DNA of 64,000 nt, from assembly GCA_030765065.1 (NCBI GenBank), contig CM060984.1, forward strand, positions 82,795,988 to 82,859,987, in the 5' to 3' direction. Position 1 is the first letter of the stretch; each line of letters opens with the position of its first letter. Made by a program: the position numbers and the translations under genes. This stretch comes from Deroplatys truncata (lineage: Eukaryota > Arthropoda > Insecta > Mantodea > Mantidae). The notes below the pieces were generated by a model. That model was not told where the DNA came from. It did no database searches and saw only the letters and a program-made list of their open reading frames with translations. Shown here piece after piece: positions 1 through 54,365 of this stretch.

Positions 1-28
1 ATATCGAGATGTCAAACTTATTGGTATT

Positions 29-913
29 ACTTTCTCTACTACGTACAGTAAGTAGGGGAAGTATTGCATTCCGCCCAAAAATTCGATACCGAGATTTCAC
101 CGGAAATACATGTTTTGAGACCTCCTGAATCCAAAAAAAGCATTTTTGGAAACATGTCCGTGTGTGTGTCTGTGTGTGTGTGTGTCTGTGTGTGTGTGTG
201 TCTGTGTGTCTGTGTGTGTGTGAACAGCATAACTCAAAAACGAACAGTCGGATAAACACCAAACTTGGTATTTAGGTTCAGTATCTTCCAGAGATGCGAC
301 ACGAAGGTTTTCAAGAAAATCCCCCCACCCCAGACTACCCTTTACATGGAACATTTTTCGAAAATTTTAATTTTCTCAAAAATGGCTCTAACGATTTTGA
401 TGAAAATATCATATGTTTAAGATAATATCATGAGAAATGAAATGTATATCTCGAATTTTCTGGGAATGTCTCCAAAAGTATTCTTCATTCTGAACGACTT
501 TTGCATAACTGGTAAACTATAAGAGATAGACAAAATTTTACTACACAAAAAATATAGATCGCGTTAAAATACACAACTTATGTCATATACATTTCTTTTG
601 TTGAGTGAACCGTTTTCGAGATATTGCTTGTTATTTCCTTAAATTTTGCAATACTTATACTTTTTCTCAAATTCGTTATTCATTTTTTTATGTCCTGGAC
701 ATGCAAAGAGAATGGAATGCGCCACATAGCAACCAGCGTTAAAATATTTGACTATCGCTTAAAAGCTACCATATTCCCCTTGCATCTACAAGAAAATTAC
801 CAATAAGATTGACATTTCGATATCTCGATTAACATGAAGCATATGGAGAATAGGCGTTTGTAAAATTAGATTGTACAAGAGTAGAGAAAGTCATGTGAGT
901 GTAACACATCAGA
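29..913 (+). mobile_element. HINE-like repeat, full copy
   Basis: Runs from ACTTTCTCTACT at 29 to ATCAGA at 913 followed by a T run. It has the TG microsatellite at about 160-220, then a long AT-rich body, then AGTAGAGAAAGT, then a hairpin with arms TCATGTG and CACATCA. It sits inside a minus-oriented copy: the host sequence breaks off at 28 and resumes in the T run at about 914-921, so the insertion point is a run of T. Confidence 0.8.
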
Positions 914-1681
914 TTTTTTTTCTTGTAGATGCAAGGGGAATATGGTAGCTTTTAAGCGATGGTCAAATATTTTAACGCTGGTTGCTATGCGGCGCATTCC
1001 ATTCTCTTTGCAAGTCCAGGACATAAAAAAATGAATAACGAATTTGAGAAAAAGTATAAGTATTGGAAAATTTAAGGGAATAACAAGCAATATCTCGAAA
1101 ACGGTTCACTCAACAAAAGAAATGTATATGACATAAGTTGTGTATTTTAACGAGATCTACATTTTTTGTGTAGTAAAAATTTGTCTATCTCTTATGGTTT
1201 ACAAGTTATGCAAAAGTCGTTCACAATGAAGAATACTTTTGGAGACATTCCCAGAAAATTCGAGATATACATTTCATTTCTCATGACATTATCTTAAACA
1301 TATGATATTTTAATCAAAATCGTTAGAGCCATTTTTGAGAAAATTAAAATTTTCGAAAAATGTTCCATGTAAAGGGTAGTCTGGGGTGGGGGGATTTTCT
1401 TGAAAACCTTCGTGTCGCATCTCTGGAAGATACTGAACCTAAATACCAAGTTTGGTGTTTATTCGACTGTTCGTTTTTGAGTTATGCTGTTCACACACAC
1501 ACAGACACACACACAGACACACACACACACAGACACACAGACACACACACGGACATGTTTCCAAAAATGCCTTTTTTGGATTCAGGAGGTCTCAAAACAT
1601 GTATTTCCGGTGAAATCTCGGTATCGAATTTTTGGGTGGAATGCAATACTTCCCCTACTTACTATACGTAGTAGAGAAAGT
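914..1681 (-). mobile_element. HINE-like repeat, right part of the interrupted host copy
   Basis: Minus-oriented copy ending in GTAGAGAAAGT at 1681. Its left part is at the window edge (1-28) and the plus copy at 29-913 splits it. Together the two copies form a near-palindrome of about 1.6 kb. The CA microsatellite at about 1494-1550 is the complement of the TG run of the other copy. Confidence 0.75.
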
Positions 1682-1686
1682 AAAAA

Positions 1687-2197
1687 TGAATAACGAATTC
1701 CCATTTGAGAAAATAAGTATTGAAAAATTTAAGCGAATAACAAGCAATATCTCGAAAATGGTTCACTCAACAAAAAAATGTATATGACATAAATTGTGTG
1801 TTTTAACGTGATCTACATTTTTTTATGTAGTAAAATTTTGTCTATCTCTTATGGTTTACCAGTTATGCAAAAGTCGTTCACAATGAAGAATACTTTTGGA
1901 GACATTCCCAGATAATTCAAGATATACATTTTATTTGTCATGAAAATATCTTAAACATATGATATTTTAATCAAAATCGTTAGAGCCATTTTTGAGAAAA
2001 TTAAAATTTTTGAAACATCTTCCATGTAAAGGGTAGTCTGGGGTGGGGGTATTTTCTTGAAAACCTTCGTGTCGCATCTCTGGAAGATACTGAACCTAAA
2101 TACCAAGTTTGGTGTTTATCCGACTGTTCGTTTCTGAGTTATGCTGTTCACAGACATACAGACACACAGACACACACACGGACATGTTTCTAAAAAA
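1687..2197 (-). mobile_element. HINE-like repeat, partial copy interrupted at its right end
   Basis: Begins in mid-element (…ATGAATAACGAATTC) directly after the A5 that ends the preceding copy. It stops in an A run (GTTTCTAAAAA). The next few bases of its consensus (TGCTTTTTTTGG) appear only at 3975-4022, so two full copies were inserted into it. The final piece ends near 4022, short of the usual terminus. Confidence 0.7.
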
Positions 2198-3083
2198 TCT
2201 GATGTGTTACACTCACATGACTTTCTCTACTCTTGTACAATCTAATTTTACAAACGCTTATTCTCCATATGCTTCATGTTAATCGAGATATCGAGATGTC
2301 AATCTTATTGGTAATTTTCTTTTAGATGCAAGGGAAATATGGTAGCTTTTAAGCGATAGTCAAATATTTTAACGGTGGTTGCTATGTGGCGCATTCCATT
2401 CTCTTTGCATGTCCAGAACATAAAAAAAATGAATAACGAATTTGAGAAAAAGTATAAGTATTGTAAAATTTAAGGAAATAACAAGCAATATCTCGAAAAC
2501 GGTTCACTCAACAAAAGAAATGTATATGACATAAGTTGTGTATTTTAACGCGATCTACATTTTTTGTGTAGTAAAATTTTGTCTATCTCTTATGGTTTAC
2601 CAGTTATGCAAAAGTCGTTCACAATGAAGAATACTTTTGGAGACATTCGCAGGAAATTCAAGATATACATTTTATTTGTCATAAAAATATCTTAAACATA
2701 TGATATTTTAATCAAAATCGTTAGAGCCATTTTTGAGAAAATTAAAATTTTCGAAAAATCTTCCATGTAAAGGGTAGTCTGGGGTGGGGGGATTTTCTTG
2801 AAAACCTTCGTGTCGCATCTCTGGAAGATACTGAACCTAAATACCAAGTTTGGTGCTTATCCGATTGTTCGTTTTTGAGTTATGCTGTTCACACACACAC
2901 AGACACACACACAGACACACACACACACACACAGACACACAGACACACACACGGACATGTTTCTAAAAATGCTTTTTTTGGATTCAGGAGGTCTCAAAAC
3001 GTGTATTTCCGGTGAAATCTCGGTATCGAATTTTTGGGTGGAATGCAATACTTTCCCTACTTACTATACGTAGTAGAGAAAGT
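2198..3083 (-). mobile_element. HINE-like repeat, full copy (first of a tandem pair)
   Basis: Full minus copy from TCTGATGTG at 2198 to GAGAAAGT at 3083. The CA microsatellite is at about 2890-2952. It is followed by AAAAA and immediately by the next copy in the same direction. Confidence 0.8.
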
Positions 3084-3088
3084 AAAAA

Positions 3089-3969
3089 TCTGATGTGTTA
3101 CACTCACATGACTTTCTCTACTCTTGTACAATCTATTTTTACAAACGCCTATTCTCCATATGCTTCATATTAATCGAGATATCGAGATGTCAATCTTATT
3201 TGTAATTTTCTTGTAGATGCAAGGGGAATATGGTAGCTTTTAAGCGATAGTCAAATATTTTAACGCTGGTTGCTATGTGGCGCATTCCATTCTCTTTGCA
3301 TGTCCAGGACATAAAAAAATGAATAACGAATTTGAGAAAAAGTATAAGTATTGCAAAATTTAAGGAAATAACAAGCAATATCTCGAAAACGGTTCACTCA
3401 ACAAAAGAAATGTATATGACATAAGTTGTGTATTTTAACGCGATCTATATTTTTTGTGTAGTAAAATTTTGTCTATCTCTTATAGTTTACCAGTTATGCA
3501 AAAGTCGTTCAGAATGAAGAATACTTTTGGAGACATTCCCAGAAAATTCGAGATATACATTTCATTTCTCATGATATTATCTTAAACATATGATATTTTC
3601 ATCAAAATCGTTAGAGCCATTTTTGAGAAAATTAAAATTTTCGAAAAATGTTCCATGTAAAGGGTAGTGTGGGGTGGGGGGATTTTCTTGAAAACCTTCG
3701 TGTCGCATCTCTGGAAGATACTGAACCTAAATACCAAGTTTGGTGTTTATCCGACTGTTCGTTTTTGAGTTATGCTGTTCACACACAGACACACAGACAC
3801 ACACACACACAGACACACACACACACAGACACACACACGGACATGTTTCCAAAAATGCTTTTTTTGGATTCAGGAGGTCTCAAAACATGTATTTCCGGTG
3901 AAATCTCGGTATCGAATTTTTGGGTGGAATGCAATACTTCCCCTACTTACTGTACGTAGTAGAGAAAGT
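3089..3969 (-). mobile_element. HINE-like repeat, full copy (second of a tandem pair)
   Basis: Full minus copy from TCTGATGTG to GAGAAAGT, then AAAAA, then the resumed host copy (3975-4022). It is very similar to its neighbour at 2198-3083, which suggests insertion at the A5 of an existing copy or rolling-circle production of a dimer. Confidence 0.8.
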
Positions 3970-3974
3970 AAAAA

Positions 3975-4022
3975 TGCTTTTTTTGGATTCAGGGGGTCTC
4001 AAAACATATATTTCCGGTGAAA
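3975..4022 (-). mobile_element. HINE-like repeat, right remnant of the interrupted host copy
   Basis: Continues the copy that breaks off at 2197: TGCTTTTTTTGGATTCAGG and onward to GGTGAAAT, then unrelated sequence. Confidence 0.65.
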
Positions 4023-5245
4023 TAAAAAACCTGTCATCTTGAGTTCCAGACCTGCGATGTCATTTCGTTCTCATTATGCGAATGGTACTCGTAGCGACAA
4101 AGAAGACCTTCAGAGGTGGGAACCACATTAGGCAGAACCATCACCATCACCACTACTACCATCATCTCTGCCATCTGAAAATATGGAGATAGTATAGACT
4201 GTCTTCTAAACGTATGGCAAAGTTTTCGATGTACAGAGCTTTTGATTTTTGTATTTAATTGCTTATTAACTTTTATATTTTGCCAAATATAATTGCATGT
4301 TCCTAAATTGTCCTCATATGAGTCTGAACTCTACTTACAACGCCGATACGAGCAAGAGTTTGGGCTCAGTATTTAGAACAAGATACAGGTATATTTCGAG
4401 AACGATTTCAAAATGGACTATAGACTATATTATGTTATCTGAAATGCTACGACAAACAAATTAAACAAACTAAAAACAACGGTTGTGTTATAATATGGAC
4501 AGGGAAAAATAATTAGTGAACTTCTTTCTACTTAAGGACGGCAGACGAGATTTAAATTTCTTGTGCATTTCATCATGGCATTAAAGTACACATCGGGAAA
4601 ACTGCGTTTCCTCTTTTTGCAATAATAACTTGTTTTCCTTGTGAGATAAACTCACAAATGTAGAAGAATCTATGTAAATCACAAGCGGCACTCCTTATGG
4701 GCGTAATTTTAGCAGATAACGAAAATTGTGCGCTTTGACAATCAAAAGGTGTACATGCAATATGTTTTATACGTTAGACTTGTTACAGGTGATACAGGTA
4801 AAAGCCTGCTGATAAAACAATACGCTTATCTGCTTAAGTGCCATCCAGTACAGGAATGTCTAATTTTCTGTAATAAAGAGTTGGCTGGTATATCCTTACC
4901 TATTCTCTGAATATTAAAAACTACAGCAAACATTCCCGTAGAAACATACGTCTGGAATAAATACAGACCTTAGAGAATATTTTAAACTACTGCTGCAGTA
5001 ATAGTCGAAGGGAGTAATTTATGGTAGCAAGCAGTTACTAAATGGCTGTCTTATAGCACCATACATAAACTAAATGTTTAGATGATAAGTCCTTATCTTC
5101 GTCCAGGTGAAAGTAACTATATTTTACTATTATTTTACTGAAAAAGAAAAGGCAAGACTCGCCATTTGAGTTCCAAAGAGTTACAAAGGGTGTTCAGATA
5201 GGGCCAAGCTTAAAGTTAAGTGTCATTCAAACTAGAAATAAAAAG
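4023..5245. other. Unassigned intergenic sequence
   Basis: No coding frame, RNA gene or repeat that I recognise. Short open frames here lack any family resemblance. A CAC/CAT-rich stretch lies at about 4139-4165. Confidence 0.5.
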
Positions 5246-8369: not shown

Positions 8370-9252
8370 TGATTACTATACTACATATAGAAATTAGGCG
8401 AAATATTGTATTCCATCCAAAAATTCGATGGCGAGATTTCACCGGACATGTTATGTTTTGAAGCCTGCTGAATCCAAAAAAGCATTCTTAGAAAAAAAAA
8501 GATCGTCAGCTTGTGTGTGTGTATGTGTATGTGAAGAGTATAACGCAAAACGAAGAGTCGAATAAATACCAAACTTGGTACTTAAGTTAAATATCTTCAT
8601 GAGTTGCGACAAGAAGATTTTCAAGTAAATCCCTCCTCCCAAACTACCTTTACATGGAACATTTTTCGAAATTATTAATTTTCTAAAAAATGGCTCTAAA
8701 GATTTTGATAAAAATATAATATGCTTCAGATGTTTACATGAAAAATAAAATGTATATTTTGAATTTTCTAGGAATGGCCTATGAAGTCCTCTTCATTCGA
8801 AAGTAGTTTTGTATAGTCTTGCATAACTGGTAAACTTAAAGCGATAGATGAAAACGCAGGCACTACGCAAAAAATGTAGACCATTTAAGACACCCAATTT
8901 ATTTTGAATAACTTTTTTCGTGGCATCAGCCATTTCCAAGACATTCGTTATTAATAGTTCGATTTATTCAATAGTCATTCTTTTAAAGTCCTGTCGATTT
9001 TCAGCTGTTTCTTGGGATGTCACGAAAAGAGTATAGAATTTTAAGGCCGGCGTATAACGTCCAGTTCTAAAACATTTGACTGTCGCCATTCCCTTTGTAT
9101 CTATAAGGAAATGTGTAATGCAGTCACTTCCGAAAGGTTTATCTCGATTAAAATGAAACAGTTACGAAAATAAGCTTTAGTGAGAATAATAACTTGTATA
9201 TCCACTTATAAGCGATACAGGGTAGAGAAGATAATTTGAATGTAACACAGAA
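8370..9252 (+). mobile_element. HINE-like repeat, old near-full copy
   Basis: Diverged left end (TACTATACTACATATAG), a short TG/TA tract near 8513-8530, the patch shared with 6204-6516 in its second half, and a diverged right end (GTAGAGAAGATAATTTGAATGTAACACAGA). A plus copy follows directly. Confidence 0.65.
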
Positions 9253-9256
9253 TTTT

Positions 9257-9376
9257 ACTTTCCCTACTACGTATACTAAGTAGGGGAAGTATTGTATTCC
9301 ACCCAAAAATTCGATACCGAGATTTATATATGTTTTGAGACCCCCTGAATCCAAATAAAGCAATTTTGGAAACATG

Positions 9377-9420
<44 letters not shown>

Positions 9421-10167
9421 TGTCTGTGAACAGCATAACTCAGAAACGAACAGTCGGATAAACTCCAAACTTGCTATTTAGGTTCAGTATCTTCCAGAGA
9501 TGCGACACGAAGGTTTTCAAGAAAATCCCCCCACCCCAGAATACCCTTTACACGTAAGATTTTTCGAAAATTTTAATTTTCTCAAAAATGGCTCTAACGA
9601 TTTTGATTAAAATATTATATGTTTAAGATATTTTCAGGACAAATAAAATGGATATCTTGAATTTTATGGGAGTGTCTCCAAAAGTATTTTTCATTGTGAA
9701 CGACTTTTGCATAACTGGTAAACCATAAGAAATAGACAAAATTTTACTACACAAAAAATGTAGATCGCGTTAAAATGCACAATTTATGTCATATACATTT
9801 TTTCTGTTGAGTGAACCATTTTCGAGATATTGCTTGTTATTCCCTTAAATTTTTCAATAATTTTCTCAAATGGGAATTCGTTATTCATTTTTTTTGTCTT
9901 GGATATGCAAAGAGTATTAATCTGTGGCAAAGGGAATGGTGCTGCACCTAGCAACCAGCTATTAAGAGATATGTATGTACCTAAAGGCTGTTGTATTTCT
10001 ATATTGCCCTTGTAAATATATATTCCCCTTGCATCTACAAGAAAATTAGCAATAAGATAGAGTCTGCAAATGTTTATCTCGATTAACATGAAGTAGATGG
10101 AGAATAAGCGTTTGTAAAAATAGTTTGTACAAGAGTAGAGAAAGTCATGTGAGTGTAACACATCAGA
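9257..10167 (+). mobile_element. HINE-like repeat, full copy of the longer subfamily
   Basis: Runs from ACTTTCCCTACTACGTA to CACATCAGA, with a TG tract at 9380-9418. It carries the subfamily segment with GTGCTGCACCTAGCAACC and an ATATATTCCCCTTGCATC tail that the copies at 29-3969 lack. It joins the older copy on its left head-to-tail through TTTT. Confidence 0.8.
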
Positions 10168-11075
10168 TTTTTTCAGTCTGATTCTACCTTCCCTAAGATC
10201 AAAATTAACTAGTGGTTGGAGGGAAAACTTCAAGCGCGACAGACACAAAGGTTTTATGATTCCACGTGATGTTTAGTAGAGCGCACACATGTAGAGTCTG
10301 ACCGCAACAGAGCCTTACATCCACGAATCTCGTAAGGCTTCAGGAGACTTAGTGCAAGCTGATAGAATCACGTGCACACGTGTGTTAAAATAAATAGCAA
10401 GTAAGCATTCAGCATTTATAGGCACATTGCTGGTGTAACGGAAATCTTTCCAAAGGTTGTTATTCGAGAAAAGCAAGCCACGTAAGGCGAGTAACTTTAA
10501 ATAATAGTGTTGTACGTGTATAAGGCAATATAGAGGTATACACATAATATACATAGGTTAATGAGGGGAACAAGGAAGTGTAAGTACCTTTCTCCCGTAT
10601 TTCTTACAATTTTAGATAAATTGTTTTATTCTGAAGCCTGAAGCTAATAACTTATCCATTGAGAGGAAGAGAGCATTACTCAACTGTTAATATTAATGCT
10701 GTTGACGGAAATTAACGCAAAACCTCAGAAAATTTGGGTACTTGTTCCAACCTATAGATATTACTAATCACCACCAATTTTAAAACTTGTATCATAAATG
10801 GTATTGGTAAATTAAACTAATTGTGTAATTAGTTAATATGCTATAAAAATGTGATTTTGTGAAAACGTATCTTAAAATAACGAGTAAATAAATGTGAAAT
10901 ACATACCTCATTTAAAAAGCTTTTTGAATTATGAATTTTTCATTCTTAGGAAGAAAAGGTCTGATACATTCCCAAGACTTTTTCTAACAACGACAAGTTT
11001 ACATATTAGTGTATTGCACTATTCATGTAAAAAGTGATTCTTCTATCCTCGCTACGTTACTCATGATATATATTT
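10168..11075. other. Unassigned intergenic sequence
   Basis: No recognised gene or repeat; AT-rich throughout. Confidence 0.5.
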
Positions 11076-11820
11076 ACTTTCTCTTCGCGTACTTAGCAGC
11101 TAGAGAAACTATTGCATTCCAACCAAAAGTTCGATTTCGAGATTTCACCTGAAATGCATATTTCAAGGCCACTGAACCAAAACAGTCCCCATCCCAAACT
11201 ATCCTTTACATGGTAATTTTGGTTATCTGTTATTTTCTCAAATATAGTTCATAAGGATTTTGATTAAAATATCGCATATTTAAGATATTTGCATGCCTAA
11301 TAAAATGTATATCTTGAATTTTCTAAAAATAGCCTTTGAAGTCTCTTTCTTCATTTGCAATAAATTTTACATAATTTTGTATTACTGTAAATCATAACCG
11401 ATAGACAAAAAGCTTACTACACAAAGAGTTTAGGTCTCTTTAAAACACACAGTTACTTAAAATATCTTTTTTGTGTAGCATCAGCCATTTCCGAGATATC
11501 CGTTGGCATTGTTTGAAGTTTTCAATGCTATGTCATTTTGAAGTGCTGCCACCATTCGGTTATTTCTTACGATGCCATGGGAAGATTATAAAATTTCATG
11601 GCCAGTATTTAGCGGTCCGTTTTTAAACATTTGGCTATCGCGTCTCCTTAAATCCGCGTTGTGCCTACAACGGAATGTGTAATGCAACCATTTTAGCGAA
11701 CGTTTGTCCGGAATAACACAAAGTAGATAGAAACATAAAGCCTTTGTAAGTATGGATTGCAGAAGAGATATAAAAATGTAGGTTAGGGGTAGAGAAAGTT
11801 ATTGAGTATAATGCATACAA
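11076..11820 (+). mobile_element. HINE-like repeat, old copy
   Basis: Left end ACTTTCTCTTCGCGTACTTA, right end GGTAGAGAAAGTTATTGAG followed by a decayed hairpin and TTTTT. It lacks the microsatellite and the segment around it. Confidence 0.65.
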
Positions 11821-13680: not shown

Positions 13681-14728
13681 AGCCCCACGTTTGGGAGCCA
13701 ATTTGTAACAGTATTACTTATAATGTTTGTGTATGTGTGTTTACTTCACATGAAGCCATCTTGTGACGTCATTCATTTGTTCGGTTTGTAGCTCCATCTG
13801 GTGTTAGCAATTTGCAGCAGTGTTAGTGTTCGAAAGAATGCGACTGTTATTTGATTTAATTTTTTTGTTTACTGTCCTCCGGCTAGCTATTATTTCTCGG
13901 TCGAACATGTCTCTTGATCAGAGTGTGTAAACGGAAAGGAATCTTTTATCCAAATATAACACTGATGAAGAAATTTGTTTTATACATTTATTGTCGAACA
14001 CGTTAACTATCGCATTTATACATTGATCTTAACACTCGCCAAACTGAAACTGTTATAATAACTTCTTACTGATCACTTTTAATCCACGTACTTCAACCTT
14101 TTGTATAATTAACCTTACAACACTTTAGATTATTCATAATTCTGCTGCGCGTAACTTGTGAATCGATACCCGACGTTTGCCGTACAAATACTTTCGACGA
14201 ATTGACTGACTGAAGACGACGTGTAGTGTACACAGATTTTTGATGAACTGAACGACTGAAGGCGACGTGTAATGTATTGGGATTTTCGATGAACTGCACG
14301 ACTGAAGGCGACGTGTCATGTATTGAGATTTTCGATGAACTGCACGACTGAAGGCGACGTGTAATGTATTGAGATTTTCGATGAACTGACGCGATCTACC
14401 TCTGACTTGCCTTTTTATACACCCACTCCCCGATATGCCTAAAGATTATAACTGAGTTACTATTGGCTAATAAAACGCGCCAACATTAGCGTCTATTTTA
14501 ATATCCAATGAAAATTATGAATACATATGCTCTAGGGAAATATTCCAGAAGATTCTCAACGGAAAAACGCGCCAACATTACGTAACTTCCTCGTTTCCAA
14601 TAATGATAAACAGCTCACCCCCTCTCACTGTATTATTGCGCGCTATTATTGACAGTTTCAGTAAGGTCGTATAAACTTACTTATCAACAATAATTACAGT
14701 CAAGAAACATCTCAAATCAATGTCACAT
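13681..14728 (-). mobile_element. LTR remnant of a retrotransposon, minus strand
   Basis: On the minus strand the order is: a candidate LTR start near 14728 (TGTGACATT), a CCAAT box (14462-14466), TATAAAAAG (14411-14419), a 46-bp minisatellite, and an end at CTGTTACA (about 13704). The end is followed by a primer-site-like TTGGCTCCCAAACGTGGGGC (about 13682-13701). The same CCC-A-CGTGGGGC motif follows the LTR at 33.9-34.8 kb. I see no coding region beyond it, so it is a solo or truncated LTR, clearly old. The outer boundary is inferred. Confidence 0.45.
14196..14388. repeat. 46-bp minisatellite, about 4.2 units
   Basis: Units of 46 bases begin at 14196, 14242, 14288 and 14334, with a partial fifth. 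Each contains GACTGAAGGCGACGTGTAATG or a close variant. The third and fourth units are nearly identical; the first is most diverged. The array lies just downstream of the TATA-like box of the minus-strand LTR, in what would be its transcribed part. Confidence 0.8.
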
Positions 14729-28704: not shown

Positions 28705-28752
<48 letters not shown>

Positions 28753-32531: not shown

Positions 32532-32567
<36 letters not shown>

Positions 32568-34780: not shown

Positions 34781-35249
34781 CTACTTCAAATTAGCGTTCC
34801 ATACGTGGGGCAGAAACTTCGTTTCTCAAATTAGCGCCCAGCTGCGTGGGGCTAGTACAGGCGAGAATAGCTGAAAAGAAGAGATCAACGAACTTCAGAG
34901 AATTTCAGTAAACTTAAGAAAAACTTCAGAGAACTTCAGAAAACTCCAGTGAACTTTAGAGAACTTAAAAATCATCAACATCCCCATCCAAGGACAGCAA
35001 CAATTCTTTCAGGAGTACGGGGCACGCAGTCAACAATTCAACTACAATCAACGAGGGAACACCAGAACAAAAAGGTTTACTAACAGCCGGAACAAAAGGT
35101 CAGAAAGTTCCAATACTTTAAATGTAATAATTGTCAAAATAGTTAAGAAAATATATTGTTATTAAGATAATTTCATGCTGTAAAGAAGCGGTAAATTAAA
35201 ATTGAGCAATTCCAAACCAAATATAACATAAGAAGGTTTACAAAATAAA

Positions 35250-37315: not shown

Positions 37316-38179
37316 TAAGGCAATATTTTTAAACACTTCAATGGTTTTAGTCAAATTATATAATATAATTTCAATAACGGCCCGCCTTAAAGCAATATGT
37401 GTATGTAACAATATACAAAAAGTGTATATTACAGTCATTGTATATGTTTATATTATTATATTCGTGCTTAATAATGTTGTGAATGTATTACGTAATTTAA
37501 TAATGTAGGAGCTGTGAGAATAATAGGTTAAAAGTTGCTAACAATGAGGTAACCTTGAGACAATAATGAATTAGAAAATTTAATAATGCTACTGGTAATT
37601 CTTGGAGCAGCGATAATGTAATTTTTGAGACAGTTTATAAATAGCCAATCAACAACCAGAAAAAAAATTTAAGTTAAATAAAAGTATTCTATTGGAGTAG
37701 GATTAGCCAATCAAAAACTGAAATAGAGCAAAATTTACAAATTCAGAAGTCAGTTGCTAGTTGACGGCGTTCCTAACCGGACGTGAGACACGTCCTCGAG
37801 AAGTTTAATACGTATTCAGTGTGAGACAAAAATAGTTTACGTGTTAAAAAGTGCAAGTAATTAATAAATAATCTAACAGCTCTCTATATTGAAGTGTTAT
37901 TTAAATCGTGTCAAGAATTAATAAAAGGAGTGAAGTAAAAATTATAATCGGTGTAAGTCTACATTCTTAGCCGCACCACTCTCTGCAAAGAAATTCATGT
38001 CTCCAACAATAATACTGATGCAGCCGAGGCAAACATAAATATATAATATTTAAAGAAACAGCCAAATTACAAAGTTAATATTTTTAAACTTGGGGCGAAG
38101 GCTACCGGAAACATTTTGCCTTACGTGCGGTTGCAACTACTTCAAGTTCGGCTCCCGTACAGTTGAAATACAATACAAC
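37316..38179 (+). repeat. 3' LTR of the LTR-retrotransposon fossil
   Basis: Direct repeat of 33923-34780. It is preceded by a purine tract (AAAAGGGGGAAA, 37302-37313) where a polypurine tract is expected. It ends near CAATACAACA. Confidence 0.75.
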
Positions 38180-38231: not shown

Positions 38232-38483
38232 ACGTTCTCTACCACTTACCTCAGAGGAAGTATTGTATTCCATCCAAAAATTTGACATCGAGATTTTACC
38301 GGAAATACATGTTTTGAATGCAAAAACGAGAATTTTTAGAAAAACGTCGCTATGTGTGTAAAAAGCGTAATACATATTAGATAAATATCAAACCTGATTT
38401 TATTTAAGTACCTTCTAAGGATGTGACACGAAAATTTTGAAGAAAATTTCCCTACTCCAACCATCCTTTATATGAACATTTTT
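38232..38483 (+). mobile_element. HINE-like repeat, left part of an old interrupted copy
   Basis: Begins ACGTTCTCTACCACTTACC and stops at GAACATTTTT. Sequence that can be its continuation resumes in a T run near 41011 and runs to about 41500, after three younger copies. Confidence 0.6.
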
Positions 38484-39097
38484 ACTTTCTCTACTTCGTA
38501 TAGTAAGTAGGGGAAGTATTGTATTCCACCCAAAAACTCGATACCGAGATTTCACCGGAAATACATGTTTTGAGATCCCATGAATCCAAAAAAAGCATTT
38601 TTGGAAACATGTCCGTGTGTGTGTCTGTCTGTGAACAGCATAACTCAGAAACGAAGTCGGATAAACGCCAAACTTGGTATTTAGGTTCAGTATCTTCCAG
38701 AGATGCGACACGAAGGTTTTCAAGAAAATCCCCCCACCCCAGACTACCCTTTACATGGAACATTTTTCGTAAATTTTAATTTTCTCAAAAATGGTTCTAA
38801 CGATTTTGATTAAAATATCATATGTTTAAGATATTTTCATGACAAATAAAATGTATATCTTCAATTTTCTGGGAATGTCTCCAAAAAATTCTTCTTTGTG
38901 AACGACTTTAGCATAACTGGTAAACCATAAGACATAGACCAAATTTTACTACACAAAAGATGTAGATCGCGTTAAAATACACAATTTATGTCATATACAT
39001 TTTTGTTGTTGAGTGAACCATTTTCGAGATATTGCTTGTTATTCCCTTAAATTTTTCAATACTTATTTTCTCAAATGGGAATTCGTTATTAATTTTT
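38484..39097 (+). mobile_element. HINE-like repeat, truncated at its right end
   Basis: Starts ACTTTCTCTACTTCGTA and breaks off in the T run of GTTATTAATTTTT, where the next copy starts. Its right third is not found on the far side of the chain, so a deletion between T runs is likely. Confidence 0.7.
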
Positions 39098-39267
39098 ACT
39101 TTCTCTGCTACGTATAGTAAGTAGGGGAAGTATTGTATTCCACCAAAAATTCGATACCGAGATTTCACCGGAAATATATGTTTTGAGACCCCCTGAATCC
39201 AAAAAAAGCATTTTTGGAAACATGTCCGTGTGTGTGTCTGTCTGTGTGTGTGTCTGTGTGTGTGTCT

Positions 39268-39315
<48 letters not shown>

Positions 39316-40064
39316 CTGTGTGTCTGTGAACAGCATAGCTCAGAAACGAACAGTCGGATAAACACCAAACTTGTTATTTAGATTCAGTATCTTCCAAGGA
39401 TGCGACACGAAGGTTTTTAAGAAAATCCACCCACCCCAGACTACCCTTTACATGGAACATTTTTCAAAAATTTTAATTTTCTCAAAAATGGCTCTAACGA
39501 TTTTGATTAAAATATTATATGTTTAAGATATTTTTATGACAAATAAAATGTATATTATGAATTTCCTGGGAATGTCTCCAAAAGTATTCTTCATTGTGAA
39601 CGACTTTTGCATAACTGGTAAACCATAAGAGACAAACGTTTACTACACAAAAATGTAGATCGCGTTAAAATACACAATTTATGTCATATACATTTTTTTT
39701 GTTGAGTGAACCATTTTCGAGATATTACTTGTTATTCCCTTAAAATTTTCAATACTTATTTTCTCAAACGGGAATTCGTTATTCATTTTTTTGTCTTGGA
39801 TATGCCAAGCGTATTAATCTGTGGGAAAGGGAATGGTGCTGCACCTAGCAACCAGCTATTAAGAGATAAGTATGTGATTAAAGGCTACTGTATTACCAAA
39901 TTGCCCTTGTAAATATATATTCCCCTTACATCTACAAGAAAATTAGCAATAAGATAGACTCTGCAAATGTTTATCTCGATTAACATGAAGTAGGTGGAGA
40001 ATAAGCGTTTGTATAAATAGTTTGTACAAGAGTAGAGAAAGTTATGTGAGTGTAACATATCAGA
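39098..40064 (+). mobile_element. HINE-like repeat, full copy
   Basis: Both ends intact. A long compound TG tract (39229-39327) makes it the longest copy. Ends CATATCAGA, then TTTTT and the next copy. Confidence 0.85.
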
Positions 40065-40069
40065 TTTTT

Positions 40070-40198
40070 ACTTTGTCTACTACGTATAGTAAGTAGGGGA
40101 AGTATTGTATTATACCCAAAAATTCGATACCGAGATTAAACCGGAAATATATGTTTTGAGACCCCCTGAATCCAAAAAAAGCATTTTTGGAAACATGC

Positions 40199-40261
<63 letters not shown>

Positions 40262-41010
40262 TGTCTGTGAACAGCATAACTCAGAAACGAACAGTCGGAT
40301 AAACACCAAACTTGCTATTTAGGTTCAGTATCTTCCAGGGATGCGACACGAAGGTTTTCAACAAAATCCCCCCACCCCAGGATACCCTTTACATTGAAGG
40401 TTTTTCGAAAATTTTAATTTTCTCAAAAACGGCTCTAACGATATTGATTAAAATGTCATATGTTTAATATATTTTCATGACAAATAAAACGTATATCTTG
40501 AATTTTCTGGGAATGTCTCCAAAAGTGTTCTTCATTGTGAACGACTTTTGCATAACCGGTAAACCATAAGAGATAGGGAAACTTTTACTGCACAAAAATG
40601 TAGATCGCGTTAAAGTACACAATTCATGTCATATACATTTTTTGTTGTAGAGTGAAGCATTTTGGAGACATTGTTTGTTATTCTCTTAAATTTTTCAATA
40701 CTTATTTTCTTAAATGGGAATTCGTTATTCATTTTTTTGTCTTTGATATGCAAAGAGTATTAATCTGTGGGAAAGGGAATGGTGCTGCACCTAGCAACCA
40801 GCTATTAAGAGATATGTATATGCTTAAAGGCTACTGTATTTCTATATTGCCCTTGTAAATATATATTCCCCTTACATCTACAGGAAAATTAGCAATAAGA
40901 TAGAGTCTGCAAATGTTTATCTCGATTAACATGAAGCATATGGAGAATAAGCGTTTGTAAAAATAGTTTGTACAAGAGTAGAGAAAGTCATGTGAGTGTA
41001 ACACATTAGA
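40070..41010 (+). mobile_element. HINE-like repeat, full copy
   Basis: Starts ACTTTGTCTACTACGTA and ends ACACATTAGA with TTTTTT. An uninterrupted TG run of about 60 bases at 40201-40260. Tandem with the copy at 39098. Confidence 0.85.
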
Positions 41011-41500
41011 TTTTTTGTTTTGCTTTTCTTTTCAAAAGTGTAAAATATATTTATGACAAATGAAGTTTGTGTACTGAATTTTTCGGGAATGCTGATGTAG
41101 TCCTCTTCATTTGAAATGATTTTATATAACTTTGTATGCTGGAAAACCAAAAGAGATAAGACAAAAGCTTACTTCACAGAAAACGTAGATCTCTGTAAAA
41201 CATACAATTTACTTTGAATAACTTTTTTGTGGCACCATGTATTTCAGATATATCCGTTGTTATTATTCCGAATTTTTCAACATTGTCATTTTTGAAGTGC
41301 ATTTTTGATTATCGCGTCAGTCTCCACTTAGAAACGAAATGTGTCATGTAACTAATTCTGCAAATGTTTATGTCGATTAATTGAAGTTGATAGAATATAG
41401 GCTTTGGTAAGAATTGTTTGTAGAAGCTGTATAAAAATAAGGGATATTGGGTAGAGAATGCAACAGTGTTGTGAATGTAACGAATATAACAAAAAGATTT
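41011..41500 (+). mobile_element. HINE-like repeat, right part of an old copy
   Basis: Old, diverged body (TTTATGACAAATGAAGTTTG…GGGTAGAGAATGCAACAGTG…GTAACG). Most likely the continuation of the copy that starts at 38232. Confidence 0.5.
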
Positions 41501-41964: not shown

Positions 41965-43173
41965 ATTATCCTCTACTACATATAGTGAGTAGGGGAAGTA
42001 TTTCATTCCACCCAAAAATTCCATACCAAGATTTCATCGCCAATACATGTTTTTGAGCTCCTAAATCCCCCCTAAAAGCACTTTTATATCGTATGTTGTC
42101 TGTGGGTCTGTGAACAACATAACTCAAAAACGAAAAGTTAGTTAAATACCAAACTTGGTATCTTTCAAAGAGGTGACGCGAAGATTTTCACGAAAATTCC
42201 CCCACCCCAGACTAACCGTTACATGGAATACTTTTGGAAAATTTTGATTTTCTCTAAAAGTCTCTAACGATTTCAATTAAAACATTATATATTTAAGATA
42301 TTTTCGTGACAAATATAACGTATATCTAGAATTTTCTGGGAATGTTCCCAAAAGTCTTCTTCATACTGAATGGTTTTGGTATAACTGATAAACCGTAAGA
42401 GATAGACAAAATTGTTCTACACAAAAAATGTATTCATTCATTATCTGTTTACCCTCTCTCGTGTAGGATTTACACCCCCCAGGACTTACAGGCGGGTGCC
42501 TGGGGTCAGAGGCCCGTCGAGGAGCAGACACTCATGGATCAGACAGAATATCCAGGATGGGTGATCAGCCCGATGCCTGGTATGGGAAGAAGGAAGTAGA
42601 TGAAGCGAAATGTTGGTGAAATGGATGAAAGGAAAGGTGATGATGGAGCAGTTGGTGGAAACCGGGGAACCCGGAGATAACCCGCCCAGACGCCGCTTCG
42701 TCCACCACAAATCCCACATGCAGATCCTTGGGATTGAACCCGGTCCGCCTCGGTGGGAGGCGAGCGGTCTAACCACTCGGCCACGGCGCCGCCACACAAA
42801 AAATGTAGATGTCGTTAAAACACACAATTTATGTCATATGCATTTATTTTTTGAGTGAACCATTTCCGAGATATTCCTTGTTATTTGTTTGAATTTTCCA
42901 ATATTTATACTTTCTCAAATGGGAATTCATTATTCGTTTTTTTAAGTCCTAGGCATGCAAAGAGAATGGAGTGCTCCACGTAGCAGCTAGCTCTTAAAAG
43001 ATTTAACTGTCGCTTAAAGCCTACCATATTCCCCTTACATCTACAAGAAAATTATCAATAAGATAGTTTCTGCAAATGTTTATCTCGATTAACATGAAAT
43101 AGATGCAGAATAAGCGTTTGTAAAAATAGTTTGTACAAGAGTAGAGAAAGTCGTGCGAGTATAACACATCAGA
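41965..43173 (+). mobile_element. HINE-like repeat, full copy interrupted by a SINE
   Basis: Starts ATTATCCTCTACTACATATAG and ends GTAGAGAAAGTCGTGCGAG…CACATCAGA. It has no long microsatellite, only GTCTGTGGGTCTGTG. The SINE at 42433-42793 splits it, with 14 bases of the copy duplicated at the insertion. Confidence 0.8.
42433..42793 (-). mobile_element. tRNA-derived SINE (family 4) with 14-bp target duplication
   Basis: On the minus strand it starts GGCGGCGCCGTGGCCGAGTGG (A box TGGCCGAGTGG) and has GGTTCAATCCC (B box), so the head is Leu/Ser-tRNA-like. It ends in an AATGAATGAA tail. ACACAAAAAATGTA flanks it at 42419-42432 and 42794-42807. Confidence 0.85.
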
Positions 43174-43756: not shown

Positions 43757-44591
43757 ACTTTCTCTACTACGTAAATTAGATATCGAGATTTCACCGGAAA
43801 TACATATTTTGAGGCTCCTGAATCCAAAAAAGGCATTTTTAGAGAACGGTCTGTGTGTGTGTCTGTGAACAGCATAAATAAAAAACAAAGACCCGAATAA
43901 ATACCAAACTTGTATTTAGGTTCAATATCTCTCAAAGACACAACACGAAGATTTTCAAAAAAATCTCCCAACCCCAGACTACCCTTTACATGCAAAAGTT
44001 TTCGAAAATTTTGATTTTCTCAAAAATGCCTCTAACAATTTTGATTAAAATATCATGCATTTAAGATATTTTCATGACAAATAAAATGTTTATCTTGAAT
44101 TGTCTGAGAATGTTCCCAAAAGTCCTGTTCTTTCTGAATGGATTTTCAATGACTAGTAAACCGTAAGAGTTAGACGACATTTTTCTGCACAAAAAATGTA
44201 GATCTCGTTAAAACACATAATTTATGCCATATACATTTTTTGTTGTTGAGTGAATCATTTTCAAGACGTTCTTTGTTATTTGTTTGAATTTTCCAATACT
44301 TACACTTTTTCTCAAATGGGAGTTCGTTATTCGTTTCTTTTGTATTTTTTTTATTCATTTTTTCTTAATGTCCTGGACATGCAAAGAGAATGAAATGCTC
44401 CGCGTAGCAACCAGCTCTTAAAAGATTTGACTATCCTTAAAGCGTACCATATTTCCTTTGCACCTACACGAAAATTAGCAATAAAACGAACATCTCGATA
44501 TCTCGATTAACATGAAGTACGTGGAGAATAAGCATTTGTAAAAATAGTTTGTACAAGAGTAGAGAAAGTCATGTGAATGTAACACATAAGA
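43757..44591 (+). mobile_element. HINE-like repeat inserted in opposite orientation
   Basis: Plus copy from ACTTTCTCTACTACG to ACACATAAGA. It is flanked by the T run of a minus-oriented host copy, which shows use of a T5 target. Short TG tract near 43853-43864. Confidence 0.8.
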
Positions 44592-44855: not shown

Positions 44856-45851
44856 TTTGATGTGTTAAATTCACATGACCTTCTCCACCAAATTTTCTAT
44901 AAATAATTACTGCAAAAGCCTGTTTTTCTGTCTGCTACCGTGTTAGTTGGGATGAATAATTGCGGAAATGTTTTAATTACATGTTTCATTGTAGGTACAA
45001 GAGGGATACGGGAGGCTAAAGCAATAGTCAGATATTTTAAAAGCTGGTCTTTACATGATGGATTTGAAATTTCACCTTTTGCATGATCACGATTAACAAA
45101 CGAATAACGATTTAGCACTTAAAAGCGTATAAACTATTTTGAAAACTCAAACCAATAACAATGAATATCTCGGAAATGATTAGTGTCACAAGGTGTACGC
45201 CTGCTTTACCGAGATCTACATGTTTGTGCGATAAGCGGCTCTCTTGCGGCTTACCAGTTATTAGAGAAATATACACAAATACACATTGCATTTAGATTTA
45301 GAATGAAAAGGACTCAGGAAATTCAGGACATGCTTTTATTTGTCATACAGATATCTTAAACTTCTTCTTCTTTCTCTGTTTAACCTCCTCTTATGTAGGA
45401 CTTACACCCCCCCCCCAGGACTTAAAGCCGGGCGCCTGGGGTCAGAGGCCTATCGAGGAGCAGACACTCATGGATCAGACAGAATATCCAGGATGGGTGA
45501 TCAGCCCGATGCCTGGTATGGGAGGAAGGAAGTAGATGAAACGAAATGATGGTGAAATGGGTGAAAGGAAAGGTGATGATGGAGCAGTTGGAATGAATGG
45601 CGGGGGAAACCGGAGAACCTGGAGAAAACCCGCCGCTTTGTCCACCACAAATCCCACATGCGTATTCCTGGGATTGAACCCGGGCCACCTCGGTGAGAGG
45701 CAGCGGTCTAACCACTCGGCCACGGCGCCGCCCTATCTTAAACTTATGGAATTATAATCAATATCCTTGGAGTCATTTTTGAGAAAGAAGATACTGAACT
45801 TAAATACCAAGTTTGGTGTTTATCTAACTTGTCGCTTTTTATTTATGCTGT

Positions 45852-45916
<65 letters not shown>

Positions 45917-49590: not shown

Positions 49591-49610
49591 TATACTGATA
49601 TTATACGCAA

Positions 49611-50087
49611 TTGTATGTCAATTGTGAATCACAATTCGCCGACCTGAAAATGCTTAACTGGAAAATTCGCCTATTTACTCCTCTGAATTTCCCTTGCGGT
49701 GAGGCTCCACATAATCTCCAAAAGGAATTACTTGAATTACAGAATTCTACTACAATTAAATTTTCTAATAAAGAAGGGTGTGAGCTCTCTAAATCACTGC
49801 CCTGTGATAAATTTTTACAATTGCGTGTGTTTACAATACATGTAATGGTAATCTTCGGATCCACATACATTTGCGAGAGAACGTTTTCCAAAATGAGTTA
49901 CATTAAAAGCCAATGTCGTAATAGGATAAACGATGATTACTTGGTGAGTCTTCTGAGACTTTGTACGTCATCAAGTATCTATCCGAGACCTTGTAGGTCA
50001 TCAAGTATCTATCTGAAACTTTGTACGTCATCAACAGCAAATATCGATAACCTTGTTAAAAATAGGATGTGCCAGAAAAATCATTAA
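49611..50087 (+). pseudogene. hAT transposase piece 4 (dimerisation domain)
   Basis: 158 codons. FTPLNFPCGEAPHNLQKELLE and VIFGSTYICERTFSKMSYIKS, then RNRINDDYL, are the hAT C-terminal dimerisation domain ('FGSTYiCE..FS.Mk..Ks..R.rLtDe.L'). The tail has a tenfold-residue repeat from a 30-bp triplication. Confidence 0.75.
49956..50035. repeat. 30-bp tandem repeat in the transposase tail
   Basis: Units at 49956, 49986 and 50016 (last one partial, 20 bases). They encode ten-residue repeats LCTSSSIYPR / PCRSSSIYLK / LCTSST, in frame. Confidence 0.8.
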
Positions 50088-51480: not shown

Positions 51481-52219
51481 AACCCATGGATACCAGAGGA
51501 GAAAACTGTTCGCTAGGCGCCAGGAACGGGCGGCAGAAGTTTTAAACGCGATTCTGACATCGGCTGCAAAATCGACTGCTCTCTAAAACTGATTCGGAAC
51601 TATCACTTTATCGCAGCAAGACATCTGGTGAAGGACTGTTCAAACCGCACTGAGGAACAGGCAGAACATCGAAGAGGAAGAGCTACTTCTATGCGGATGC
51701 CACGTCACGATGACCCTACCCAAGGGAATGTGGTCACAGCATTAAGCTAAAGGAGAAAGAGCGTGTAATAATTGTCCTCAGTTGTTCGGTTGTGTCTGCT
51801 GATTGGGATAGCACAGGCCTGAGGAAGGGAACTACAGGCGAACGCCGACTTGGGCCCTCTTCTGAAAACTCGAGAGAGAAAGGAGGTCAAGCTGGGCAGA
51901 CATCACACCAAAGGTTAACTTGTATAAGTCCTACTGGGCCCATTCGGACTTATTGAAGACCAGAAAAGGTGTGCCGTTCAATGTGGGAGTCACCTGATGG
52001 GAAGACCATGTACTTCCTCGGAAGAAGGCGAATGAGATCCTGATGTAAATGCATTCAAGGACTTCAGAAGGACATCTGGGCCCCAAACTAACAGTCGACA
52101 ATCTCCGAGCAAGCTTGCGGCTACAGGCAGACATTGAGAAATGACGCCGTCAGTGTCAGGTGTGTGCAGCGAGTCTCGGCCCACAGAGTAAGTATCGGGG
52201 CCGCATGCAACGGTATAGC

Positions 52220-52680
52220 ATGGGATGACTTTTTGAACGAACCTTCAACGACGTAGCTTTGCTGTTTACTGCGTCCGACTGGGGAAACTATCAGTTGACA
52301 TCATAGATTATTTCACCAAGTGATCAGAAGTGTACGCCATCCCTAAACAAGAACCAGGACTACGTTGTGGAGGACCAGTTCTGTCGTTTTGGGATACCAC
52401 TAGAGCTCTGTAGAGACCAGGGCGTCAACTCAGAGTCCAACTTGATGAGAGAAGCATTGGAGCGGCTTGTAGTGCACCAGACTGGCACCAGACGGCACAA
52501 TAGAGTGTTACATCAAGACCCTAGAAAAACTTCCGAAGAGGGTTATCGCCAGTTACTAAAGGGACTGGGATATCAGGGTGTCGCTTTTCATGCTGGCCTA
52601 CTGCTCGTCAACCCTAGCAATACTACGTTGATTACAGCAATCTTGTGTTTGACAGAGAACTGCGTCTTCCATGCGCCCTG
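52220..52680 (+). pseudogene. Integrase-like part of the Gypsy fossil
   Basis: FGIPLELCRDQGVNSESNL fits the 'FG.P..lhsDQG..FeS.l' stretch of Gypsy integrases. LVDIIDYFTKW-like sequence near 52290 would precede it. Broken. Confidence 0.6.
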
Positions 52681-53599
52681 AAGTACCATGGAGCAGAGCA
52701 GCCAGCAACCGAGTACGTAGAGGACCTTGTGGACCATTTTGAGAATATCCACCAGATGTCCCGATAGCACATCTGGGCGGCGAGCGATTGCATGAAGACC
52801 TGTTAAGACCAGCAAGCCAAAAGCTAAGGTTTTCAGCAGGGTGCCCTGGTGTGGTTGTATCACCCTACCGGACCAAAGAGCGTTACCCCAAGTTTCAACA
52901 ACTCTGGCAAGCACTTACCCTGTGGTGAAGAGAATAACTATGTAGTCTACCGCATCCAGAGACCGCCACTGTAGTGGTACATATGGATCGCCTAGCCAGA
53001 GCAGTGGGAGGAAGCAGTGTGGCCACATCCGCGTGATACAGAATGTCTTAGTCATCGAGGAAGCTCTGGGTGCGGGAGATTCGAGAAAGCAAACCCGTAT
53101 TGTACATTAGACCAAACATTGGAAGAGACTGACTAACCTTCGAGACAGTTCCCCATCTTATTCTGGTGAATTCTGGAATATTACATACACGGTCTCCCTA
53201 GCAGCAGGGGGCTATAAAAAGACGGCAGGAAATAAATGTGAGGTAGTTACTAAATAGTTGCGAGCGAGATACGAGGAATTTGTAAGTCAGAGCTGTAAAG
53301 CGAGGCTTGTAACGCATTTCGCGTATTAAAAAAGGTTTGTTACGAGTCAACCGGGGTGTTTAACACAATATGTTGAAAGTTCTGTGAATAGCATGTAAAC
53401 GCCTCTTCGTTCGGAAAAATGTTGTATTGCTTTATATAACTAGTGAACCATAGGAAATAACAGAAGGCTAAACACATAAAAAATGATGTAGATATTTTTA
53501 AAACACACAATTTATATTAAATAGACTTATTTTGTGGCATTAACCAACTTAAAGGTATTCATTGTTCTTGATTTGTGTATTTATGTTTTTGAAATGCTA

Positions 53600-54139
53600 G
53601 GACAAGAACTAATTGCGAAGGGGAACTTAGCATCTCGACCTACAAGATCTTTTGTGCCTGAAGCTCCTGACGGAAGCCCCCGGGAGGGACGGGTAAGGAG
53701 ACCAGGAGGCACGACAGCAAAAGGGCAGTGTTCCTACCTTTCCAGATTCAAACTCCCTCGATAGCAACCGGTACAATCGGCTCCCCTGCACCTGCAGGCT
53801 TCCATATCCGACTGGGGGGACCAGGGCTCGGAAATCGCCTCCATTCTGGGGGAAGAAGTGTTACATAGAGCATTATTTTCCCTTGCCATGCAACGCCGAG
53901 ACTCCCGTCGACACTGCAACCCTGAAACAACCAAGCAGATGAAAGTGAAGTGAAATGAGAATGAAGATGAAATGGAGGGACAGGAAATTTGGGGATATAA
54001 TGAACATTCCCAGCATTCGCCTAGCAACCCGAGGAAACCTCCTAGAAAATTATGGGTCAGGAAGGTCGGCCGCGGGAATCGTAACCACGACCTCCCGAAT
54101 GCGGGCCACAGACGTTACCGCCTGAGCCATCCCGCTCGG
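53600..54139 (-). mobile_element. tRNA-derived SINE (family 1) with 14-bp target duplication
   Basis: TTTTTGAAATGCTA (53586-53599) and TTTTTGAAGTGCTA (54140-54153) flank it, differing at one base. Minus strand starts CCGAGCGGGATGGCTCAGG with B-box-like GGTTACGATTCCC. The body matches 25456-25976. Inserted in the old HINE-like copy. Confidence 0.8.
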
Positions 54140-54365
54140 TTTTTGAAGTGCTAATTCATTGTACATTTGTTTCTTGTCACGTCGTACAAAGAGAGGATTT
54201 TAACACCAACAAATTGGACCCTGCTTTTATAGACTTGAACATCACTTTAATCTCCTATATTCCTCTTGTACCTACAAAGAATTATGTAATAAGACTATTT
54301 TTGCAAACGTTTATCTCGGTTAATATGAATAGATAGAAAAATAAGCTTTTGTAAGAACCTGGTAC

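Follow-up and report, generated by a model that had tools for sequence, protein, structure and literature searches.

HINEs are non-autonomous rolling-circle elements of the Helentron group, and the parts of the literature consulted here describe them well enough for comparison. In the excerpts used of PMC4067079 (Thomas et al.) and PMC7492417, HINE/DINE-1 elements carry subterminal inverted repeats of about 12 bp, a nested 5′ inverted repeat with a microsatellite next to it, and a 3′ hairpin, and they insert into T-rich targets without duplication and with a variable number of T at the border. The same part of PMC4067079 gives two rules of classification, by which at least 11 bp of identical subterminal inverted repeat (subTIR) define a family and 80% identity over the last 60 bp defines a subfamily. 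Here, we analyzed a stretch of 64,000 bases (hereafter the window; GenBank assembly GCA_030765065.1, contig CM060984.1, positions 82,795,988 to 82,859,987 of the forward strand; contig C10 in our numbering) from the 4.29-Gb genome of the mantis Deroplatys truncata, in which one abundant repeat family shares all of the features listed above. An original prediction, made from the letters of the window, had interpreted this family as Helentron-associated; the hallmarks that it named were tested and found, and both of the tests that it proposed for its own refutation were run. We conclude with high confidence that the repeats are HINEs and that a Helentron with the same ends is present in the genome.

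The repeat family, its ends and its target sites

Using a profile built from the eight full copies in the window (881-967 bp each), we found 45 fragments of the family, which together occupy 21,264 bp (33%), a density above the genome average. Merging these fragments by hand gave about 33 insertions; the predicted number of about 27 copies was therefore fair, but the single layout ascribed to them is absent as a whole from most, which are mere fragments. The coordinates predicted for four of the full copies (29469-30371, 31789-32695, 39098-40064 and 40070-41010) were exact. Three full copies (29-913, 2198-3083 and 3089-3969) form subfamily 1, with mutual identities of 96.3-99.3%, and the remaining five form subfamily 2 (92.3-94.8%), while identity between the subfamilies is 87.8-89.6%. 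The repeats contain no recognised gene. Within the full copies, no start-codon frame of at least 120 amino acids was present other than 9784-10248 (reverse strand), which was unscanned and extends beyond the end of its copy. The first 57.5 kb contain 143 stop-to-stop frames of 62 or more amino acids that lie outside the family; 125 of these were scanned, and none matched Rep, helicase or nuclease. Exact patterns of the family gave no match outside its own genome in the viral and genome contigs scanned.

Aligned copies start with ACTTTCTCTACT directly after a T run and finish with ...AGTAGAGAAAGTCATGTGAGTGTAACACATCAGA directly before a T run. The right 12-mer, AGTAGAGAAAGT, is exact in all eight full copies, and its complement, ACTTTCTCTACT, is exact at the left end of five and has one mismatch in the other three. 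This is the inverted repeat that had been predicted between the left tip and a subterminal site on the right, and at 12 bp it is longer than the 11 bp of identical subTIR from which a HINE is recognised. The 3′ end comprises the complementary 12-mer together with a short hairpin and a tail of about six T. Across the genome, the 12-mer occurs 537,760 times on both strands (267,484 + 270,276), compared with 2,012 (1,038 + 974) for a reversed control. The ends differ from those of canonical Helitron1 elements (5′ TC, 3′ CTRR and A/T insertion), as they read ACTTTC and CAGA followed by T, and insertion is in T runs.

At the left end, the initial 12 bases are paired with 12 others further downstream in a 12-bp 5′ hairpin that the original prediction had overlooked; a 5′ inverted repeat nested in this way within the left repeat is characteristic of DINE-1-type elements. 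Across 16 left ends (14 of them distinct; of the 20, four with damage or truncation were excluded), 94.6% of the cells in its 12 pairs are paired, and three pairs show compensatory changes on both sides. None of 500 shuffles matched the paired cells and the covariation score, and 13 of 500 matched the number of pairs changed on both sides. The predicted 3′ hairpin, with six of seven pairs, was also present; across 18 right ends, 92.4% of the cells of these six pairs are paired, in keeping with the 3′ palindrome expected of such elements. The microsatellite slot is likewise real but does not lie in the core as proposed, since it falls at about positions 125-195 of 900, in the left fifth of the element. 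The slot is the same in old and young copies, the unit being GT in the young and AG in several of the old.

The elements land within T runs, read on the same strand as the element itself. At least four T precede 13 of the 20 left ends examined, and all 13 are among the 16 in which the terminal motif is kept; such a run precedes 1.7% of positions by chance. Since the family nests in itself, other copies (paralogues) could be used as uninterrupted sites. The head-to-tail pair 2198-3969 interrupts ...GCATTTTTGGAAACATG... after its T run, where 11 other copies have five T (ten copies) or four (one copy); the copy 29-913 interrupts the opposite-strand sequence ATTTTCTTG; and the block 38484-41010 interrupts a T run of an old copy, for which one other copy served as the comparison. 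At all three nested sites, duplication other than T was absent and about six T had been gained. A further sample held 24 full copies in 20 other stretches, chosen from the 12-mer listing, all from the initial 9.1 Mb of contig C1 and thus not random; four of these are satellite copies with a two-base AA match and were set aside. In the other 20, no non-T duplication was found, and at least four T were present on the left in 16 and on the right in 18. The predicted insertion in T runs without a longer duplication was borne out by both sets of sites, and the non-T duplication at empty sites that was to have spoken against a HINE was seen in neither. A 13-bp direct repeat, CATCAGATTTTTT, flanking 29469-30371 was considered as a target duplication and rejected, as it is the 3′ end of the older upstream copy.

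These observations also bear on two other classes of mobile element. A miniature inverted-repeat transposable element (MITE), or another cut-and-paste element with terminal inverted repeats (TIRs) moved by a DDE transposase, would likewise be short, non-coding and present in high copy number, with 12-bp inverted repeats. However, the combination of a target duplication with repeats at both tips was not found: the right repeat is set back by 22 bp from the tip of the element, nothing other than T is duplicated, and the long relatives described below encode Rep, helicase and endonuclease, so that we consider this explanation extremely improbable. Much the same can be said of a retroposon lying on the opposite strand, whose poly(A) tail would be the T6 tail and which would have inserted by target-primed reverse transcription. 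A runs do bound the element on the minus strand, but the lack of a target duplication, the sharpness of both ends, the covarying hairpin at one DNA end and a partner with Rep-helicase leave this alternative with almost no weight.

A Helentron with the same ends

We searched the genome for Rep using Pfam PF14214 and scored 150 of 291 candidates. There were at least 152 Rep matches, and at least 18 of those listed lie in a frame of at least 2,000 codons with no stop in the match. Two copies with open frames, A and B, were read through and are 98.9% identical over a 7-kb core. Copy B has a single frame of 2,324 codons with Pfam matches to Herpes_teg_N (1.9e-9), which we take to be a protease-like domain, DUF6570 (4e-17), Helitron_like_N (3.6e-28) and PIF1 (8.9e-29). 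It also contains RGSPHEHMFFW, YIIKY, GDFNFD and SDHKPI, which are presumably HUH, Y2 and nuclease motifs. Pfam reported no DDE-type transposase in the one frame scanned, that of copy B. The young long copies have a single open frame of about 2,300 codons. In the one copy measured, the long element extends over 10.4 kb from its outer left end and 9.8 kb from its inner one. Tandem repeats of 63 bp were noted inside the Helentron frame stretch of copy B (L035, about 3030-3854).

To compare the ends, 15 long copies were taken from the Rep matches, mostly for their long frames; the frame reaches 2,000 codons or more in 14 of them, and four further rows of this kind were left out. All 15 have the right end GGTGTAGAGAAAGTTATGTGAATGTAACACATCAGA with five or more T behind it, and 14 have the HINE left end, that of copy P lying beyond the fetched letters. 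The HINE profile aligns at its positions 1-787 with the initial 760 bp of copies A and B, counted from the inner left end, and at positions 901-934 with the last 34 bp of copy A and of the other 14 long copies. The original prediction had proposed a search for an autonomous Helentron with both family ends, and this is what was found, with Rep, a PIF1 helicase and a C-terminal endonuclease; a relative with these ends that encodes a DNA transposase, which was to have counted against a HINE, did not appear in the one frame scanned. The internal DNA and the protein of the Helentron gave no match to the window.

These findings suggest how the repeats might move. The HINEs keep the two ends that the Helentron enzyme should recognise, and Rep would start at the left end and stop at the right end, copying the strand between them. 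The protein of this Helentron may thus move the HINEs, and the nature of the enzyme, together with the absence of a target duplication, points to rolling-circle replication.

Several results nonetheless weigh against this assignment. Over the last 60 bp, copy B agrees with five HINE copies at only 44-46 positions, below the 80% of the subfamily rule, and a closer partner may exist; given the shared subTIR, the Helentron and the HINEs belong to the same family and to different subfamilies according to the rules of PMC4067079. No match was found between the long element and profile positions 788-900, which indicates that the HINEs of the window are not simple deletion products of the Helentron. 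The endonuclease match of copy B (Exo_endo_phos_2, 2.1e-6) is modest and was obtained only if the C-terminal region was searched alone, and comparison of this C-terminus with PDB sequences gave a chance-level match only. The 3′ hairpin is weak, as it showed no covariation beyond shuffles over the 18 right ends and a folding energy no better than theirs. The HINEs may instead depend on a different mover, either a Helitron2 that lacks endonuclease or a further Helentron subfamily, in which case the long copies would only have their ends in common with the HINEs. The poor agreement over the last 60 bp would fit such a mover, and the best-scoring Rep matches belong to another, decayed-looking class, whose ends were outside the comparison. 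On the other hand, sequence is shared at both tips, over 760 bp on the left and the last 34 bp on the right, and the long copies are young with open frames. We therefore consider a different mover unlikely and favor the Helentron described here.

Doubled ends, nesting and genome share

All 12 long copies with a readable junction have two left modules in succession, that is, positions 1-629, four T and a second left end. Identity among the outer modules is 97.3-100% in 13 copies, namely these 12 plus the partly read copy J; the module of copy K, whose assignment is doubtful, is 92.9-95.0% identical to the others. At the substitutions that are diagnostic for the subfamilies, all 12 copies have an outer module with 13-14 sites of subfamily-1 type and one of subfamily-2 type; in all four copies tested for it, the inner module has 32-33 sites of subfamily-2 type and 3-4 of subfamily-1 type. 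To judge from these sequences, the doubled left end likely originated when a Helentron entered a subfamily-1 HINE at its position-629 T run and subsequently transposed with the outer left end as its start. Once copies are nested, a host copy could contribute its outer left end for use with the inner right end, and this use of ends would explain the doubled left ends, the doubled right ends and the captured outer module. Doubled right modules, in which a full element is followed by about positions 655-934, were found in L003, L009, L014 and L016; L016 has three extra modules in succession, and L004 has a short one. Slippage was considered as the source of the repeated right modules in L016 and fits poorly, because modules of about 220 and about 280 bp alternate.

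The window itself contains two junctions of the position-629 type. At 1681/1682, the left end of a subfamily-1 copy (918-1681, reverse strand; profile 1-812) abuts position 629 of an interrupted subfamily-2 copy (1682-2195, reverse strand; profile 116-660), the upstream piece of which is 3970-4023. At 39097/39098, the T run of a left module (38484-39097, forward strand; positions 1-629, subfamily 2), whose own right part is missing, is joined to the left end of the full subfamily-2 copy 39098-40064 (forward strand). The host pieces are both of subfamily 2, but the inserted copies are of different subfamilies, so that the junctions are probably separate events, and a single composite behind both was rejected. 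The missing right part of 38484-39097 was first read as a deletion; given the doubled left ends seen elsewhere, an origin by choice of ends is equally likely.

Unequal recombination in place between nested copies could also make such module junctions without any transposition from alternative ends, which tells against our reading of the doubled modules. Identity amounts to 92.6% and 96.3% in the full-copy pairs of the window and to 94.2% between the joined left modules, which would suffice for recombination, and the composite 38484-41010 could be explained in this way. Nevertheless, 12 long copies from different places share the same doubled-left junction, indicating that, its first formation aside, the composite moves as a unit. 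We thus regard recombination as the less probable origin, albeit one that retains an appreciable chance, and prefer transposition with a choice of ends.

Exact head-to-tail junctions number 6,953 in the whole genome, compared with none for the reversed control. Among those listed, four at G000:C1:19824422-19831893 are exactly 2,481 bp apart and form a tandem array with HINE pairs in it. Another tandem array, with a period of about 3,408 bp, lies close to the beginning of contig C1 (G000:C1, about 20-120 kb; L001/L002); the units that were read contain an 832-bp HINE without a T run at its left border and thus represent a satellite with an absorbed HINE. Two HINE copies with the same flanks in L011 (1323-2182 and 8709-9566), 7.4 kb apart, reflect a duplicated segment that already held the insertion.

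HINE sequence lies directly at one or both sides of 12 of the 15 long copies (A, C, D, F, G, H, I, J, K, M, N and O), which suggests that the elements may supply their own landing sites. Copies B and E have no adjoining HINE sequence, and copy P was read on its right side only. A HINE right module, from position 630, directly follows eight of the 15, and a HINE left module directly precedes six of the 13 with a readable outer border; landing is often at the run of seven to eight T at position 629. The host right modules have a mean identity of 91.6% (77.5-99.1%), compared with 99.5% for the 3′ ends of the Helentrons, and this greater diversity makes most of them look like separate landings. 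It could be argued that the nesting reflects the spread of one nested composite instead of repeated targeting, since the host right modules are 93-99% alike in seven of the eight and the host left modules are 92.2-97.8% alike. However, this explanation, which we consider rather improbable, does not readily accommodate the difference between the two averages, nor the host right module of copy H, which is different and only 77-81% identical to the others.

Tests on the separate landings that we favor gave the following results. A binomial test of long copies in the family, run as 11 of 14, gave P = 0.001-0.006 against a background of 35-42% of A/T runs inside the family, estimated from 16 random stretches. 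In the window, four of ten young left ends lie at the 3′ T run of another copy (P = 2e-6 to 0.003, depending on the run length assumed). There are four head-to-tail pairs in the window, and two of them join copies that are only 71% and 69% identical, which disfavors read-through of one template for these two pairs.

A number of points speak against self-targeting, and run length may explain most of the preference. Runs of at least six A or T number only 3-4 per copy (four copies), including those at position 105 (A6-7), at 625-655 (T7-8) and in the 3′ tail, and the family holds 50% of the runs of at least five T in the window. If only runs of at least six T count, the position-629 excess among the long copies drops to P = 0.002 (seven of 11, with five such runs per element assumed and copy K doubtful), and the P value of the 3′-end excess in the window weakens to 0.003. 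Nine of ten young insertions in the window are within family sequence, with P = 0.01, or 0.04 counting only runs of at least six. None of the 20 full copies elsewhere was flagged by script at the 3′ T run of another copy, and by eye L019 was, at an interrupted run. Moreover, without copy H the host right modules, at 93-99%, come nearer to the 99.5% of the Helentrons.

The share of the family in the genome was estimated in two ways. In 29 stretches at arbitrary coordinates (53 kb) it amounted to 19.1% (bootstrap 10-28%), or 13.4% at matches of at least 200 bits, with 48 bases in a reversed control. This sample is slightly rich, as its nine 12-mers predict 728,000 in the genome compared with the 537,760 found, and the spread is wide, 23.7% in the first 16 random stretches and 4.8% (618 of 13,000 bases) in the 13 added later, which argues for caution over the share. 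Scaling of the family bases per 12-mer in the window to the genome count gave 602 Mb, or 14%, if the ratio of the window holds elsewhere. Very roughly, the family thus makes up one seventh of the genome. Self-supplied T runs may have helped it to reach this share. We tentatively propose, as a possibility with a substantial though not a prevailing chance, a loop in which the T runs at the tail and at position 629 draw copies, nesting multiplies the ends, unrestricted choice between them keeps generating composites and the Helentron is itself a composite with the left module captured from a successful HINE subfamily, and which drove the family to about one seventh of the 4.3-Gb genome.

The remaining copies in the window illustrate this nesting at different ages. 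The full subfamily-1 copy 29-913 (forward strand) sits in a T4 run, on the opposite strand, of the copy 918-1681. In the pair 2198-3969, both partners are full subfamily-1 copies on the reverse strand, with 3089-3969 upstream and 2198-3083 downstream, and the pair lies in a T5 run at position 119 of another copy, the left piece of which (positions 66-119) is 3970-4023 (reverse strand). On the forward strand, the full subfamily-2 copy 9257-10167 lies at the 3′ T run of an older copy (8371-9252) that ends in T4 and is 71% identical to it, and an old copy (28559-29462), 69% identical to its downstream neighbor, adjoins the full subfamily-2 copy 29469-30371 (forward strand) by its 3′ T6 run. The full copy 40070-41010 (forward strand) is head-to-tail with 39098-40064, to which it is 92.6% identical; the composite 38484-41010 splits an old forward-strand copy into a left piece (38233-38482) and right pieces (41032-41482). 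The full subfamily-2 copy 31789-32695 (reverse strand) has non-family flanks. Among old copies, 11076-11819 (forward strand) has both ends and a recognisable 5′ hairpin, and 24021-24925 (reverse strand) has a perfect 12-bp 5′ hairpin with compensatory changes. On the forward strand, 41966-43173 has a damaged left end and an unrelated repeat inside at about 42437-42791, and 43757-44591, an older copy with both ends, lies between the pieces of an opposite-strand family copy.

The window also contains other elements. The unrelated repeat just mentioned is a second short interspersed repeat (42437-42791 and 45368-45730, 86% identical), the first copy of which interrupts the HINE 41966-43173. Another interspersed repeat (25456-25957 and 53615-54140, 72%) looks like a tRNA-derived short interspersed element (SINE), judging from putative boxes. 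A direct repeat of about 870 bp (33925-34780 and 37318-38179, 92% identical) surrounds 2.5 kb with a 302-codon coiled-coil-like frame; the whole (33925-38179) looks like a long terminal repeat (LTR)-type element, and recognised enzyme domains are absent. Fragments of a virus-like element extend over 58353-63706, with a double jelly-roll match (PF21738, 4.4e-57) at 58641-59294 (reverse strand); the frames around it had no Pfam match, and a protein scan of viral contigs with the jelly-roll fragment gave none. A frame at 27666-27977 (reverse strand) matches ChaC (PF04752, 1.6e-20) and is probably a host gene exon, a tandem repeat of 46 bp in 4.3 copies lies at 14192-14389, and a frame at 49599-50087 resembles, as we take it, the C-terminal part of a hAT transposase, for which Pfam gave no match.

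Comparison with known systems

A literal search for four of the end sequences in 5.39 million papers returned 11, none of them on transposons to judge by the titles. Together with searches on Helentrons, tandem Helitrons and genome share, it gave no description of this family in the literature, Repbase and Dfam being outside that search, and the suggestion in the original prediction that the family may be undescribed is unrefuted; PMC7992393 served, in part, as a further source for comparison. In the mite HINEs of the excerpts consulted, the 3′ repeat lies 38-60 bp from the end, and in the window family it is nearer, at 22 bp. The long copies resemble the Helentrons of PMC4067079, as far as that source was covered, in having a single frame for Rep, PIF1 helicase and a C-terminal endonuclease along with ends that match a HINE, and their N-terminal protease-like domain recalls the OTU proteases described there. 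They differ in the doubled mosaic left end, in the 63-bp tandem repeats and in being, by the 60-bp rule, the partner of another subfamily. The asymmetric terminal inverted repeats and hairpins of the family are also found in the excerpted description of Helitron2/FoHeli (PMC5148889), where Helitron2 inserts after TTTT; that Helitron2 is without an endonuclease, whereas copy B has an endonuclease domain.

Head-to-tail arrays, 3′-truncated inner copies and adjoining distant relatives likewise have counterparts in the tandem and composite Helitrons of PMC4067079 and PMC7492417, again as far as consulted. The former discusses tandem arrays, neighboring insertions and composite transposition as possibilities, and the latter mentions tandem Helitrons with 3′-truncated inner copies. 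Two of the four pairs in the window are only 69-71% identical, a divergence that read-through of one end signal does not explain. In the parts of the literature compared, we did not find a Helentron with a HINE-type outer left end of another subfamily; here, the autonomous element carries an end of the kind seen on one non-autonomous subfamily. With a HINE family and its likely enzyme source together in one genome, along with many young Helentrons with open frames, end recognition and strand-specific targeting of T runs become testable in the laboratory.

With regard to abundance, the sections of PMC4067079 consulted give 6% (a bat group) and 6.62% (a butterfly) for all Helitrons, and those of PMC7486953 give 7-20% of grasshopper repeatomes for all helitrons, with the top cluster of some species annotated as helitron, so that a large share is not unprecedented. 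The share of the single family described here, 14% or 19% depending on the estimate, exceeds the former figures and lies inside the grasshopper range. The element is thus of a kind already known, and its scale and captured left end are the interesting parts.

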